A DNA stretch of 64,000 nt from Alphaproteobacteria bacterium (GTDB lineage Bacteria > Pseudomonadota > Alphaproteobacteria > Paracaedibacterales > VGCI01), in assembly GCA_016870095.1 (NCBI GenBank), contig VGCI01000007.1, positions 1 to 64,000 of the forward strand. Direction: 5' to 3'. The notes beneath the pieces are model-generated. The model had not been told where the DNA came from. It searched no databases and was given only the letters and a program-made list of their open reading frames with translations. Within the stretch, counting starts at the first letter, position 1. Each line of letters starts with the position of its first letter. Shown here in pieces: positions 6,157-10,603 of the stretch. The position numbers were made by a program, and so were the translations under genes.

Positions 6157-7812
6157 CTAACGACCAAAGGTAAAGGCATAGGCTTGCAAACCAGGCTCTA
6201 GGGCTTGAATTTCTAGCTGACCTTCTGCGAAAGAGGGTAAAGACACTAATTCGTATAGGGTATCTTTTGTAATTGTGACTTCATCATTTTTAACATCTGC
6301 ACCAGAATTTTTTCCGAGACCCTGACTATTCAAAGTGATTTTTGCCTTGAGAGGCTGACCAGTCTCGCTTCCAAGAACAAGAAAGACTTTTTTGGCATTG
6401 AAATGAAGTTTGAGTTTTGCCTGGGCTTCTTTACATACACTTCTTTGTTTTTCAACAATCCATTTTCCTTCTAAAGACCAGCTATTAAGAGTGATATCAC
6501 TAACATTTGGGTAATCAAAAGGTTGATCGGGAATGATGACGGAAGGGGAGGCAAATCTTTCGGCGCGTTCAGACCCTAAATAAGTTTCTGGAGTTATGGG
6601 ATCGGTACCAATTTCTTTGGCTTCTACCGGAGTTTCTCCTTTTGAGGTTAATCCTAATAGATAGCGGATGTTGGACTCGGTGACATCATAATTTCCTTCA
6701 CCAAAATGGGTATAAACTATTTTTCCTTCTCGGTCGATTAAGTAGTGGGCAGGCCAATAGCGATTTTTAAAATTAAGCCATGTTTTAAAGGCATTATCCA
6801 ACGCTACACTGTAGTGAATATTATGTTGTTTAACGGCATTTTGGACATTTTTCAAATCCATCTCGAAGGCAAATTCGGGGGTATGAATGCCAATAATAAC
6901 TAAGCCATTATTTCGATAGGTTTCATCCCATTTTATTAAATGAGGCAGCGTTCTCACACAATTTATACAAGAGTAGGTCCAAAAATCAATCAAAACGACT
7001 TTTCCTTTGAGGGAGTCTAAACTTAAAGGGGGGGAATTAATCCAATTTTGAATTCCAGCAATATTAGGAGCAGTATAGGGAGCCGGCAATCCATTTATTA
7101 ATCCCTCTGAGGGGGGATTAATATTTTCTTTTGGCGCTTCTGTCGGAGCAAAGGAAGCTCCTGCAGGCCAAGCAGAATAAACAACGCTTATTAAAATAAT
7201 AATTCCAAGCATTTTTCGAATAACGCCTGTATATGATTTCAGGGAAGAAACCTGTTTCATAATTCTTCTGCCCATTAAAATGAGAAACAACATAGGTAAA
7301 GATGCTCCGAGACTGAAAGATAGCAGGGTAAAGACAGTCTCAATGGTTGTTTGTTGCGTAACAGTTTGAACGATAACAGCTGCCATAATGGGACCAGCAC
7401 AAGGGATCCAAATACATCCAATACCCACACCTAAAAATAATCCTCCTAGAAATCCCGAGTTGATAGCTTGGGTTTGCGCCAATTTTTCACCTAAATTGGC
7501 AAAATGAGTGGTCCATTTTGTAAATTTCTCACTTAAGGAATCGGAAATAAGCACAAGACCAAAAAGAAAGAGGAGAACAAAGGAGATATATCGAATGACG
7601 TTCACATCAATGCCGAGAGCTGTAATTAACTGGCGGGATAGGAGTGTTAACGCTGAGAAAGAAATCACAAAGCCGACAATGATGCCGTAGGGCCGCCACC
7701 TTGCCCCTTCAATGCCGACAGATAAAACAATAGGTAAAATGGGAAGGATACAAGGAGAGAGAATGAGGCCCAAACCCTCTAAAAATGCAAGTCCATATGC
7801 GAAAAAATTCAT
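6157..7812 (-). CDS. dipZ: DipZ-type thiol-disulfide interchange protein: CcdA membrane domain + thioredoxin domain + C-terminal beta domain
   Basis: A 551-residue fusion. Residues 1-215 form a multi-pass CcdA/DsbD-like membrane unit with paired cysteines (LSPCILPILP near 20 and WIPCAGP near 138) that would carry electrons across the inner membrane. Residues about 245-390 are a TlpA/thioredoxin domain with active-site Cys-Ile-Asn-Cys (about 281-284, in DFWTYSCINCVRTLP). The final 150 residues, starting PETYLGSERAERF, match the carbohydrate-binding-like C-terminal domain of DipZ proteins. The likely role is delivering reductant to periplasmic thiols or to cytochrome c assembly. It is divergent from the bufferin operon across a 399-base spacer. 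No cytochrome c assembly genes are nearby. Confidence 0.87.
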   Translation of the reverse strand: MNFFAYGLAFLEGLGLILSPCILPILPIVLSVGIEGARWRPYGIIVGFVISFSALTLLSRQLITALGIDVNVIRYISFVLLFLFGLVLISDSLSEKFTKWTTHFANLGEKLAQTQAINSGFLGGLFLGVGIGCIWIPCAGPIMAAVIVQTVTQQTTIETVFTLLSFSLGASLPMLFLILMGRRIMKQVSSLKSYTGVIRKMLGIIILISVVYSAWPAGASFAPTEAPKENINPPSEGLINGLPAPYTAPNIAGIQNWINSPPLSLDSLKGKVVLIDFWTYSCINCVRTLPHLIKWDETYRNNGLVIIGIHTPEFAFEMDLKNVQNAVKQHNIHYSVALDNAFKTWLNFKNRYWPAHYLIDREGKIVYTHFGEGNYDVTESNIRYLLGLTSKGETPVEAKEIGTDPITPETYLGSERAERFASPSVIIPDQPFDYPNVSDITLNSWSLEGKWIVEKQRSVCKEAQAKLKLHFNAKKVFLVLGSETGQPLKAKITLNSQGLGKNSGADVKNDEVTITKDTLYELVSLPSFAEGQLEIQALEPGLQAYAFTFGR

Positions 7813-8211
7813 TTTGACCTCAATTCAGAACAAGAACTTAAACTCATTAATTTAATGCTATGTTTAAAATATTTATTAATCAAGGAACTTTAAAATACAT
7901 TAATAATTTTCTAATTAATCTTGCGAAGATTGTTAATAAGCTGTTTTTTAAAACTAAAATACATAATTACTTTAAATTGGAATTGACCGGTATGAATGCC
8001 CATTGGGAGAAAATACGTGTAAAGGAATGAAACACAAGCCCCTTAGTCTACGGGAGCTAAGTCTGTATTAAGCAATATAACATTTTGATATGACAGAAAA
8101 TTTTTTATCTTCATAATCTTTTTACCTCTTGTCTGTTATAAAAAATAATGTTGTCATAATACGTGTGACTACAGCAAAATTGGATTTATATTTTATTAAA
8201 GGGGAATTATC
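7813..8211. other. 399-base spacer between dipZ and the bufferin operon
   Basis: AT-rich sequence between divergent genes. I see no CDS with a credible ribosome-binding site. The only promoter-like element near the plus-strand operon is at 8165-8192, listed separately. No recognisable metal-regulator operator or CRISPR-like repeat was found. Confidence 0.4.
8165..8192 (+). promoter_or_regulatory. Candidate promoter of the bufferin operon
   Basis: GTGACT (8165-8170) and TATATT (8187-8192) are 16 bases apart, about 20 bases upstream of the first codon. The match is moderate. It is the best fit in the spacer but is unsupported by anything except position. Confidence 0.3.
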
Positions 8212-8502
8212 TTGAAAACTTCCTATATTTACTCTGCTCTAGTCACAGCAATTAGTATATCTGTGGCGAATGCCGAAAATGAGCCACCAAAAAACGACCA
8301 TGAAAGATGTTATGGAATCGCCAAAGCTGGTGAAAATGAATGTTGGGGAACAGACAGAAATGGTGAAAAACATGCCTGCTATTCGTGGTCTGTTGAAGAC
8401 AACGATCCTTACGCTTGGATTTTGGTACCCAAAGGGACATGTTTCGGAAGGAAGGGAACGCTAAAACCGCCACCTGTTCCGACAAAAAAGTCTCCCGTTT
8501 GA
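8212..8502 (+). CDS. bufA1: Bufferin-type RiPP precursor, DUF2282 family
   Basis: This 96-residue protein has a Sec signal peptide (hydrophobic 8-20, cleavage after VANA at 21), so the mature peptide is periplasmic or outside. The core contains four cysteines at 33, 44, 56 and 77 in the DUF2282 pattern: CYGIAKAGENEC, a third Cys at HAC, and WILVPKGTC. In characterised bufferins an MNIO enzyme converts core cysteines to copper-binding heterocycles. The end is Pro/Lys-rich. The start is TTG, chosen because AAAGGGG (8198-8204) lies seven bases upstream and no ATG is available. It is the first gene of a four-gene operon with DUF692, DUF2063 and DoxX proteins, which fixes the assignment. Confidence 0.85.
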   Translation: MKTSYIYSALVTAISISVANAENEPPKNDHERCYGIAKAGENECWGTDRNGEKHACYSWSVEDNDPYAWILVPKGTCFGRKGTLKPPPVPTKKSPV

Positions 8503-8545
8503 TATCGTTAAGACACGGATTATGAAAGAATAGGAATCATTATTT

Positions 8546-9424
8546 ATGAGTTTTACAGGCTTATCTCCACGTCAAGCGTCTGCAGGTGTTGGTTTGCGTA
8601 GGCCCCATTATACAGATTTCTTAAATGAAAAGCAGCCGATAGCTTGGTTAGAGGTTCATGCAGAAAATTTCTTGAACTTTGATACACCAGCTTTCAAAAT
8701 CCTGGAGCGATTGCGTCAGGATTATCCCGTCAGTTTCCATGCTGTTAATTTGTCTTTAGGATCAAGTGATGGCATTGATGAAGAACATGTGAAGCGTGTG
8801 AAAGCTCTTATCGAGCGTATCAATCCATTTTTTGTGTCAGACCATCTTTCGTGGGGGCGGATTGATGGATACTACCTCAATGATCTGTTGCCGATTCCTT
8901 ATACGCACGAGGCTTTAACTCTATTCGCCTCAAACCTTTCCCGCATACAGGATTTATTAGAGCGCCCTTTATTAATTGAGAATCCTTCTTCATACTTACA
9001 ATTTCAGGTGAGTGAAATGAGCGAAGCAGAATTTTTAGGAGCTTTGGTACATCGGGCTGGTGCGGGTGTTCTCTTAGATATCAATAACATTTATGTCTCT
9101 TGTTCTAATCACGGATGGGATGCTCAGCAATACTTAAAAGCCATTCCCGCCGGAAAAGTCAAAGAAATGCACCTCTCGGGCCATGTCCTGCAAGGCAAAC
9201 TTCGTATTGATGATCATGGGTCACAAGTTTGTCCCGAAGTTTGGGATTTATATCAAAAAGCCATAAATATCTTTGGTCCTGTCCCGACTCTCATCGAATG
9301 GGATAGCAATGTTCCGAGCTTGACTACATTGTTAGATGAAGCCTCAAAAGCACAAACGATTCTTGATTCTGTGCGCGTTCCTTCTAATACGACTCGAAAG
9401 GAACGCCATGTCCGGTTTGGGTAA
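8546..9424 (+). CDS. bufB: DUF692 multinuclear non-haem iron oxidase (MNIO) for bufferin maturation
   Basis: The 292-residue protein is a TIM-barrel DUF692 family member that oxidises cysteines of its RiPP precursor using a di- or tri-iron centre. Typical segments with candidate metal ligands are visible: GVGLRRPHY, WLEVHAENF, SFHAVNLSLG, FVSDHLSWG, LIENPSSYLQF, LLDINNIYVS, EMHLSGH and LIEWDSNVP. Length agrees with BufB proteins (about 275-290). AGGAATC precedes the ATG. It sits 43 bases after the precursor gene, and its last 17 bases overlap the start of bufC. The substrate is inferred from the adjacent DUF2282 gene. Confidence 0.93.
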   Translation: MSFTGLSPRQASAGVGLRRPHYTDFLNEKQPIAWLEVHAENFLNFDTPAFKILERLRQDYPVSFHAVNLSLGSSDGIDEEHVKRVKALIERINPFFVSDHLSWGRIDGYYLNDLLPIPYTHEALTLFASNLSRIQDLLERPLLIENPSSYLQFQVSEMSEAEFLGALVHRAGAGVLLDINNIYVSCSNHGWDAQQYLKAIPAGKVKEMHLSGHVLQGKLRIDDHGSQVCPEVWDLYQKAINIFGPVPTLIEWDSNVPSLTTLLDEASKAQTILDSVRVPSNTTRKERHVRFG

Positions 9425-10184
9425 AATACAACGGGATTTTCGAGAGTTTATTCTGGGTCATGGGTATGAAGATTTTATGCAGCATATAAAATCCACAGAT
9501 TTACCTAAGGAAGAGTCTCTGGATGTTTACCATCATAATATTTTTTCCGTTCATCATCGCAGCTTAGTTAATGATTACCCCTTAGTATTTTCAATTATAG
9601 ACGACACAACAGCGCGTCGTATGGTTCGCGCGTACGTTGAAGTCAGTTTACCATGTACAGGTTCCTTAGAAGACTGGGGAGGCGGATTCATATCTTTTAT
9701 CCAGCGATATGAATTGGCGTCGCAATGGCCCTACTTAACAGAAATGGCTCAATTTGAATGGGCTAAACATATCGCCTATTGCGCAAAAGAAAAACCATTG
9801 TTAAATCCTGAGGATATGAGAAAACTTGTGGATTCTAGCCAAAAAGAGATTAGTTTTCATTTCCAACCCTCTTGTCAGTTGATGGCTTTTCTTCATCCCT
9901 TAGAACAAATTATTCAGACTCACCAAAATGAACCCAAAAAGCCTTTATCCGATTTAAAGGGAACATCTTATGCCCTTATTTTAAAGCATCAGGGGCACAT
10001 TAATGTGTATTGGGTTTCTGCTTCTTTATTTGTTTTCATAAACCGCTTAAAAGAAGGTCAAGATATTGAAGTTGCCTTTGCTGCAGCCCAAGTTTTAGAA
10101 CCAGAATTTGATGCTCAAGAAGCATTCAGTTTTCTTTTACAACATCCCATTTTATGCCGAGAAGGAGACGAAACATGTGTTTGA
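9408..10184 (+). CDS. bufC: DUF2063 partner protein of the MNIO
   Basis: About 258 residues are encoded from the ATG at 9408, preceded by AAAGGAACGCC. The frame is open further back to 9336, but that would lie inside bufB. The N-terminal DUF2063 domain is recognisable from LGKIQRDFREFILG and VYHHNIFSVHHRSLVNDYPLVFSII, then WPYLTEMAQFEWAKHIAY. Members of this family act with DUF692 enzymes and are thought to present the precursor peptide to the oxidase. The gene overlaps bufB by 17 bases and bufD by 10 bases, so translation is probably coupled. Confidence 0.88.
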   Translation: MSGLGKIQRDFREFILGHGYEDFMQHIKSTDLPKEESLDVYHHNIFSVHHRSLVNDYPLVFSIIDDTTARRMVRAYVEVSLPCTGSLEDWGGGFISFIQRYELASQWPYLTEMAQFEWAKHIAYCAKEKPLLNPEDMRKLVDSSQKEISFHFQPSCQLMAFLHPLEQIIQTHQNEPKKPLSDLKGTSYALILKHQGHINVYWVSASLFVFINRLKEGQDIEVAFAAAQVLEPEFDAQEAFSFLLQHPILCREGDETCV

Positions 10185-10603
10185 CTAAAAAATTAACCCG
10201 TCTGTTTGAACGACTTGAGTATTATGGCTGGCCTGTCCTTTTGCTGGGCATTCGATTCTGGATGGCATTTACATTTGGCAGAACGGCAATCGTAAAAGTT
10301 AAACACCTAGACGCAACATTAAGTTTATTTCGATTTGAATATCATATTCCTTTTATATCTCCGGATATTGCAGCCTATCTGACAATGTTCTTTGAACTTG
10401 CTTGCCCGGCGTTATTAATTCTTGGCCTGATGACCCGACTGGCAACAATTCCGCTGCTTGTGATCGTCGGGGTTATACATTTCACATACATAACCCACCA
10501 CGATCATATGGATTGGATACTGATGTTGGGTGTCCTTCTATTAAAGGGTGCCGGTCCCCTCTCGCTTGATGCCTTGTGGTGTCGACGGTATGTCACAAGA
10601 TAA
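10175..10603 (+). CDS. bufD: DoxX-family membrane protein of the bufferin operon
   Basis: About 142 residues with four hydrophobic helices (around 22-38, 65-85, 90-105 and 115-130). A DoxX-like N-terminal segment (VLLLGIRFWMAFTFGRTAIVKV) and an acidic/His loop (YITHHDHMDW) are visible. DoxX proteins close many DUF692-DUF2063 operons; their role is unproven, with redox or export support suggested. The start at 10175 is preferred over the upstream in-frame ATG at 10154 because AGAAGGAG lies seven bases before it. The final 63 bases overlap the 3' end of the convergent hisC-like gene, an unusually long convergent overlap. Confidence 0.85.
   Translation: MCLTKKLTRLFERLEYYGWPVLLLGIRFWMAFTFGRTAIVKVKHLDATLSLFRFEYHIPFISPDIAAYLTMFFELACPALLILGLMTRLATIPLLVIVGVIHFTYITHHDHMDWILMLGVLLLKGAGPLSLDALWCRRYVTR

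Follow-up and report, generated by a model that had tools for sequence, protein, structure and literature searches.

Positions 8212-10603 of the window (the whole 64,000-nucleotide stretch of alphaproteobacterial DNA that was analysed) carry genes for a precursor, an MNIO enzyme, a DUF2063 protein and a DoxX protein on the same strand and in bufferin-1 operon order, and these very probably form a functional bufferin-1 biosynthesis operon that works by the published mechanism, with chemistry, copper binding and location that would be those of the family. Bufferins are a recently recognised route for coping with copper and have been studied mainly in bacteria with further copper defences. The operon is ordinary in kind and its genomic setting is unusual; a genome that uses copper and has no efflux gene above cut-offs lends itself to the question of whether sequestration can replace efflux.

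Identification of the operon

The core of bufferin clusters consists of a precursor, an MNIO, a DUF2063 protein and DoxX (PMC12452194). A sequence-only reading of the window had placed these four genes where Table 1 gives them, and Pfam profile searches confirm all four families, with E-values of 1.3e-14 for DUF2282, 6e-103 for MbnB_TglH_ChrH (DUF692), 1.6e-13 for DUF2063 and 1e-11 for DoxX, each match scoring above its curated cut-off. The bufferin-1 (BufA1-type) identity proposed in that reading also passes the sequence tests, both in gene order and in BufB, which exceeds the cut-off of the NCBIfam equivalog MNIO_BufB, with the HvfB (242.6 bits against a cut-off of 360) and MbnB models behind it. 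BufC and DoxX match the NCBIfam equivalogs HvfC and HvfX well under the cut-offs, which counts against the reading but would be expected if those models cover the other branch.

Table 1. The bufferin operon and its upstream block, in window coordinates
Feature	Position	Strand	Supporting evidence
bufA, DUF2282 precursor, 96 aa	8212..8502	+	PF10048 54.4 bits vs cut-off 22.4; conserved TTG start
bufB, MNIO (DUF692) maturase, 292 aa	8546..9424	+	PF05114 E 6e-103; NF050167 359.5 bits vs 310
bufC, DUF2063 partner, 258 aa	9408..10184	+	PF09836 51.2 bits vs 27.2; orthologue-supported start
doxX, DoxX-family membrane protein, 142 aa	10175..10603	+	PF07681 45.7 bits vs 23.6; AGGAGA before start
promoter-proximal block CTTGTCTGNTATAAAAANTAATGNTGTCATAATAC(NNN)TGAC, candidate	8119..8169	+	upstream of bufA; genus-conserved in four-genome alignment

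The start of bufC at 9408, which gives a 17-nt overlap with bufB, was taken from orthologues rather than from the mechanical call at 9336, and for doxX the start that follows AGGAGA is more likely than the upstream ATG at 10154. The TTG start of bufA, already read as such from the sequence, is preceded by AAAGGGG and is kept in each of the four genus members. A 26-base core of the upstream block is likewise exact, at its specified positions, at the bufA loci of all four, and at no other examined locus. A sigma-70 scan upstream of the operon returned nothing better than shuffled sequence, and no terminator above chance was found 3' of doxX. The region upstream of bufA is shared with a divergent gene (6157-7812, minus strand) that encodes a fusion of a DsbD-like membrane domain, a TlpA-like thioredoxin and a Thioredoxin_10 domain; this gene was rejected as a member of the system, being missing between the GST gene and bufA in a relative from the same genus (G002), and thus is no conserved partner.

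Residues of the BufB enzyme

Across 113 BufB homologues, twelve residues never vary (E36, E40, H65, H100, E145, N146, E160, N180, N181, N188, H209 and H224), and a further four (D178, D222, E251 and D253) are the same in 112, the exception being another relative, G003. The BufB of the window retains every one of them; loss of the DUF692 metal-binding set had been named beforehand as an observation that would count against the identification, and the set is intact. D222 and H224 align through 3BWW with a D-x-H motif and are, by motif rather than by structure, the apparent equivalents of HvfB D242 and H244, the replacement of which abolishes activity (PMC13419390). By the same kind of comparison D253 is the apparent counterpart of FonB D249, which is the proposed catalytic base and whose alanine variant leaves the peptide unmodified (PMC13097082).

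Proposed mechanism and related systems

BufA would be synthesised with a Sec signal peptide that doubles as the recognition leader, and BufB together with BufC would use an iron cluster and O2 in the cytoplasm to convert Cys44 and Cys56 to 5-thiooxazoles. After export the outer Cys33 and Cys77 would form a disulfide, and the modified peptide would chelate Cu(I) in the periplasm, with DoxX as a putative accessory protein of the inner membrane. Such buffering may stand in for copper efflux, a role in this organism that is our own inference.

The closest known systems are the Buf1 (DUF2282) operons, founded on Caulobacter vibrioides (PMC12452194), with which the window locus has in common the four cysteines, an apparent signal peptide, the MNIO, the DUF2063 partner and DoxX. 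It differs from them in having neither a sigma-factor nor an NrsF gene, in a precursor with a central loop of 11 residues (6-8 there) and NEC instead of NDC at the second cysteine, and in its TTG start and intracellular-type genome. The GIG operons of Legionella pneumophila and Cupriavidus metallidurans comprise the same four families; that of Legionella, which also lives inside protozoa, responds to gold and copper (PMC5413113). Legionella has several GIG copies, one of them on a mobile element, whereas the genome of the window has one operon and one orphan precursor. The captophorins/oxazolins, made by FonABC and HvfABC (PMC13097082, PMC13419390), depend on the same enzyme superfamily with the catalytic Asp conserved, and 5-thiooxazole chemistry is probably common to these enzymes and BufB. 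Their precursors, however, carry EGKCG repeats, which are absent from BufA, so that the HvfB/captophorin type is not matched, and BufB lies under the HvfB equivalog cut-off as noted above.

Copper genes and lifestyle

The genome of the window (99.1% complete, 1.80 Mb) encodes COX1, a heme-copper oxidase, and so uses copper; no 16S rRNA gene turned up in the assembly. Searches for Cu-ATPases, CusA/CzcA-type pumps, multicopper oxidases and HMA domains found no Cu-ATPase above cut-off, the best matches being a 695-aa frame that is KdpB-like and lacks a CPC/CPH motif and an 866-aa frame. Nor was a CusA/CzcA-type heavy-metal RND found above cut-off in this genome, where three RND pumps score below it, or a multicopper oxidase, or any HMA domain, the last by a search that was positive in 13 of 14 controls. 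Copper ATPases above cut-off occur in only 3 of 42 genomes of the order; their lack is therefore usual there, and it is the gain or retention of the bufferin, not the missing efflux, that is unusual.

The same genome encodes an ATP/ADP translocase (E 6e-177), a protein characteristic of bacteria that inhabit eukaryotic cells. Judged by its gene content the bacterium looks intracellular, and the host association that the sequence-only reading had raised as possible gains support; its description of the DNA as low in GC stands only in part, the window at 41% being moderately low.

Copper buffering, as proposed at the outset, would follow from family membership (PMC12452194, PMC13097082) and fits the missing efflux genes, while the suggestion that it protects against copper poisoning inside phagocytic hosts is speculation. 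A thiooxazole peptide might also be made chiefly for another soft metal (gold, silver or mercury), or for oxidative or sulfur stress. No copper gene adjoins the operon, the comparable Legionella operon is responsive to gold besides copper (PMC5413113), and MerC fusions and DoxX hint at wider roles (PMC12452194); yet the characterised thiooxazole peptides are copper binders (PMC13097082), and this copper-using genome yielded no copper-efflux gene, so we regard a main job other than copper as unlikely.

The precursor, its central loop and an orphan paralogue

The N-terminus of BufA shows by eye a lysine, a hydrophobic stretch and an ANA|E site, an apparent Sec signal peptide of about residues 1-21. 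Its cysteines, Cys33, Cys44, Cys56 and Cys77, are invariant in 49 aligned precursors; the pattern used to select this set already demands them. The predicted structure has a mean pLDDT of 80.6, with the confident part spanning roughly residues 30 to 90; a PDB fold search with it gave no match at E < 1, and a sequence search was also empty.

The segment between the central cysteines is 11 residues long. The comparison covers 97 distinct DUF2282 cores, obtained as pattern matches in the examined loci (one further row, with a loop of 9, is a chance match); those loci had been selected for their resemblance to the window's BufB or BufA, so the sample is not random. Of these cores, 92 have a loop of 6-8 residues, the three from this genus have 11, and two paralogues have 12. 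With 3-5 residues more in this loop than almost every relative has, the precursor may not be modified at both sites, and it offers a probe of how far the maturase tolerates changes in spacing. What sets this precursor apart is the loop and not the Trp after the second cysteine, which had been part of the divergence noted from the sequence: that Trp is not genus-conserved, being Ala in both relatives. The 12-residue loops belong to tandem DUF2282 precursors in two MAGs (L037:4293-4565 and L057:308-580), where one precursor of each pair has the long loop and its partner a normal one of 6; they are an independent lengthening.

A second DUF2282 gene lies elsewhere in the genome of the window (L093:1420-1659; G000:C11:4548-4787). 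It encodes 79 aa from an ATG start, scores 69.9 bits, has the canonical 6-residue loop and has no MNIO gene alongside. Precursors distant from MNIO genes are already known in the bufferin family (PMC12452194). Since the BufB of the window is the only MNIO of the genome, it is the only candidate maturase for this orphan and may modify it too.

These features could be read to mean that the orphan is the real substrate of BufBC and the operon precursor a drifting, poorly modified copy. The orphan's loop is canonical and its DUF2282 score the higher one (69.9 against 54.4 bits), the long loop is unique to the genus in the sample apart from the two 12-residue paralogues, and decay has occurred within the genus, in G003. 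Set against this, the long loop keeps its G-T and G-E-K residues in three species of the genus, no orphan was found in the relatives, and the upstream block and TTG start are conserved. Conservation of the loop, GEK, upstream block and start indicates selection rather than drift, and we think this account improbable, somewhat more so than the one that assigns the peptide a main job other than copper.

Distribution and decay in the genus

Of the 42 genomes of the order that were searched, the four from this genus carry bufB and the other 38 do not. The locus is syntenic with that of G002, with the GST gene upstream and thioesterase and TamA-like genes beyond, in support of vertical descent among the genus members. 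A tree built from 113 BufB sequences recovers the genus as one clade, with a support of 100 and a long stem; this clade has no clear sister, and horizontal transfer from a named donor was accordingly rejected. The nonsynonymous distance of bufB from the window to G001 and G002 is 0.16-0.17 although synonymous sites are saturated, which points to strong purifying selection; the same saturation ruled out dS-based tests for relaxed selection. In G001 the DoxX gene (L140:6011-6379) is shortened in frame, with about 20 residues fewer than other copies.

The copy in G003 has decayed. Its bufB frame (L012:1432-2580; G003:C4) is open, but carries D178N, D222S, E251K and D253K, replacements that include the counterpart of the catalytic base, and its terminal branch in the BufB tree, 0.34 against 0.10-0.12 in the relatives, is about three times as long. 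At the bufA position lies a frame that begins with TTG, resembles a signal peptide at its start and has no cysteine core, a TetR-like gene takes the place of doxX, and DUF2282 was not found in the genome, which is 78% complete. From its sequence the bufferin system of G003 is dead and the copy is a natural negative control. Loss of function in this one of four genus genomes and an internal deletion in the DoxX of G001 mean that these two members, at least, can do without the system. That the window operon is itself a non-functional remnant, as the decay in G003 and the shortened DoxX of G001 might suggest, is nevertheless highly improbable, because its four frames are open, the invariant BufB residues are intact and bufB is under strong purifying selection.

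G003 also holds the sole above-cut-off copper ATPase of the genus, a P1B ATPase of CPH type that reaches 586.8 bits against the copper model. The heavy-metal ATPase of G002 (321.8 bits, TPC motif) stays under the threshold, and none was found in G001, which is 84% complete. An either/or relation between bufferin and copper ATPase is suggested by a single case only, that of G003. In a tentative proposal, possible rather than probable, an intracellular alphaproteobacterium without dedicated efflux would depend for its whole copper defence on two thiooxazole peptides, the operon-borne one with its lengthened loop and the orphan, with one BufBC maturing both, and an ATPase-bearing relative would have let the system die. 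If true, sequestration and efflux would be interchangeable strategies.

A genome from a different family of the order, without a BufB match anywhere, encodes a DUF2282 protein whose start resembles that of a lipoprotein (L096:1318-1740; G004:C8); it may be a relative that goes unmodified or is put to another use.
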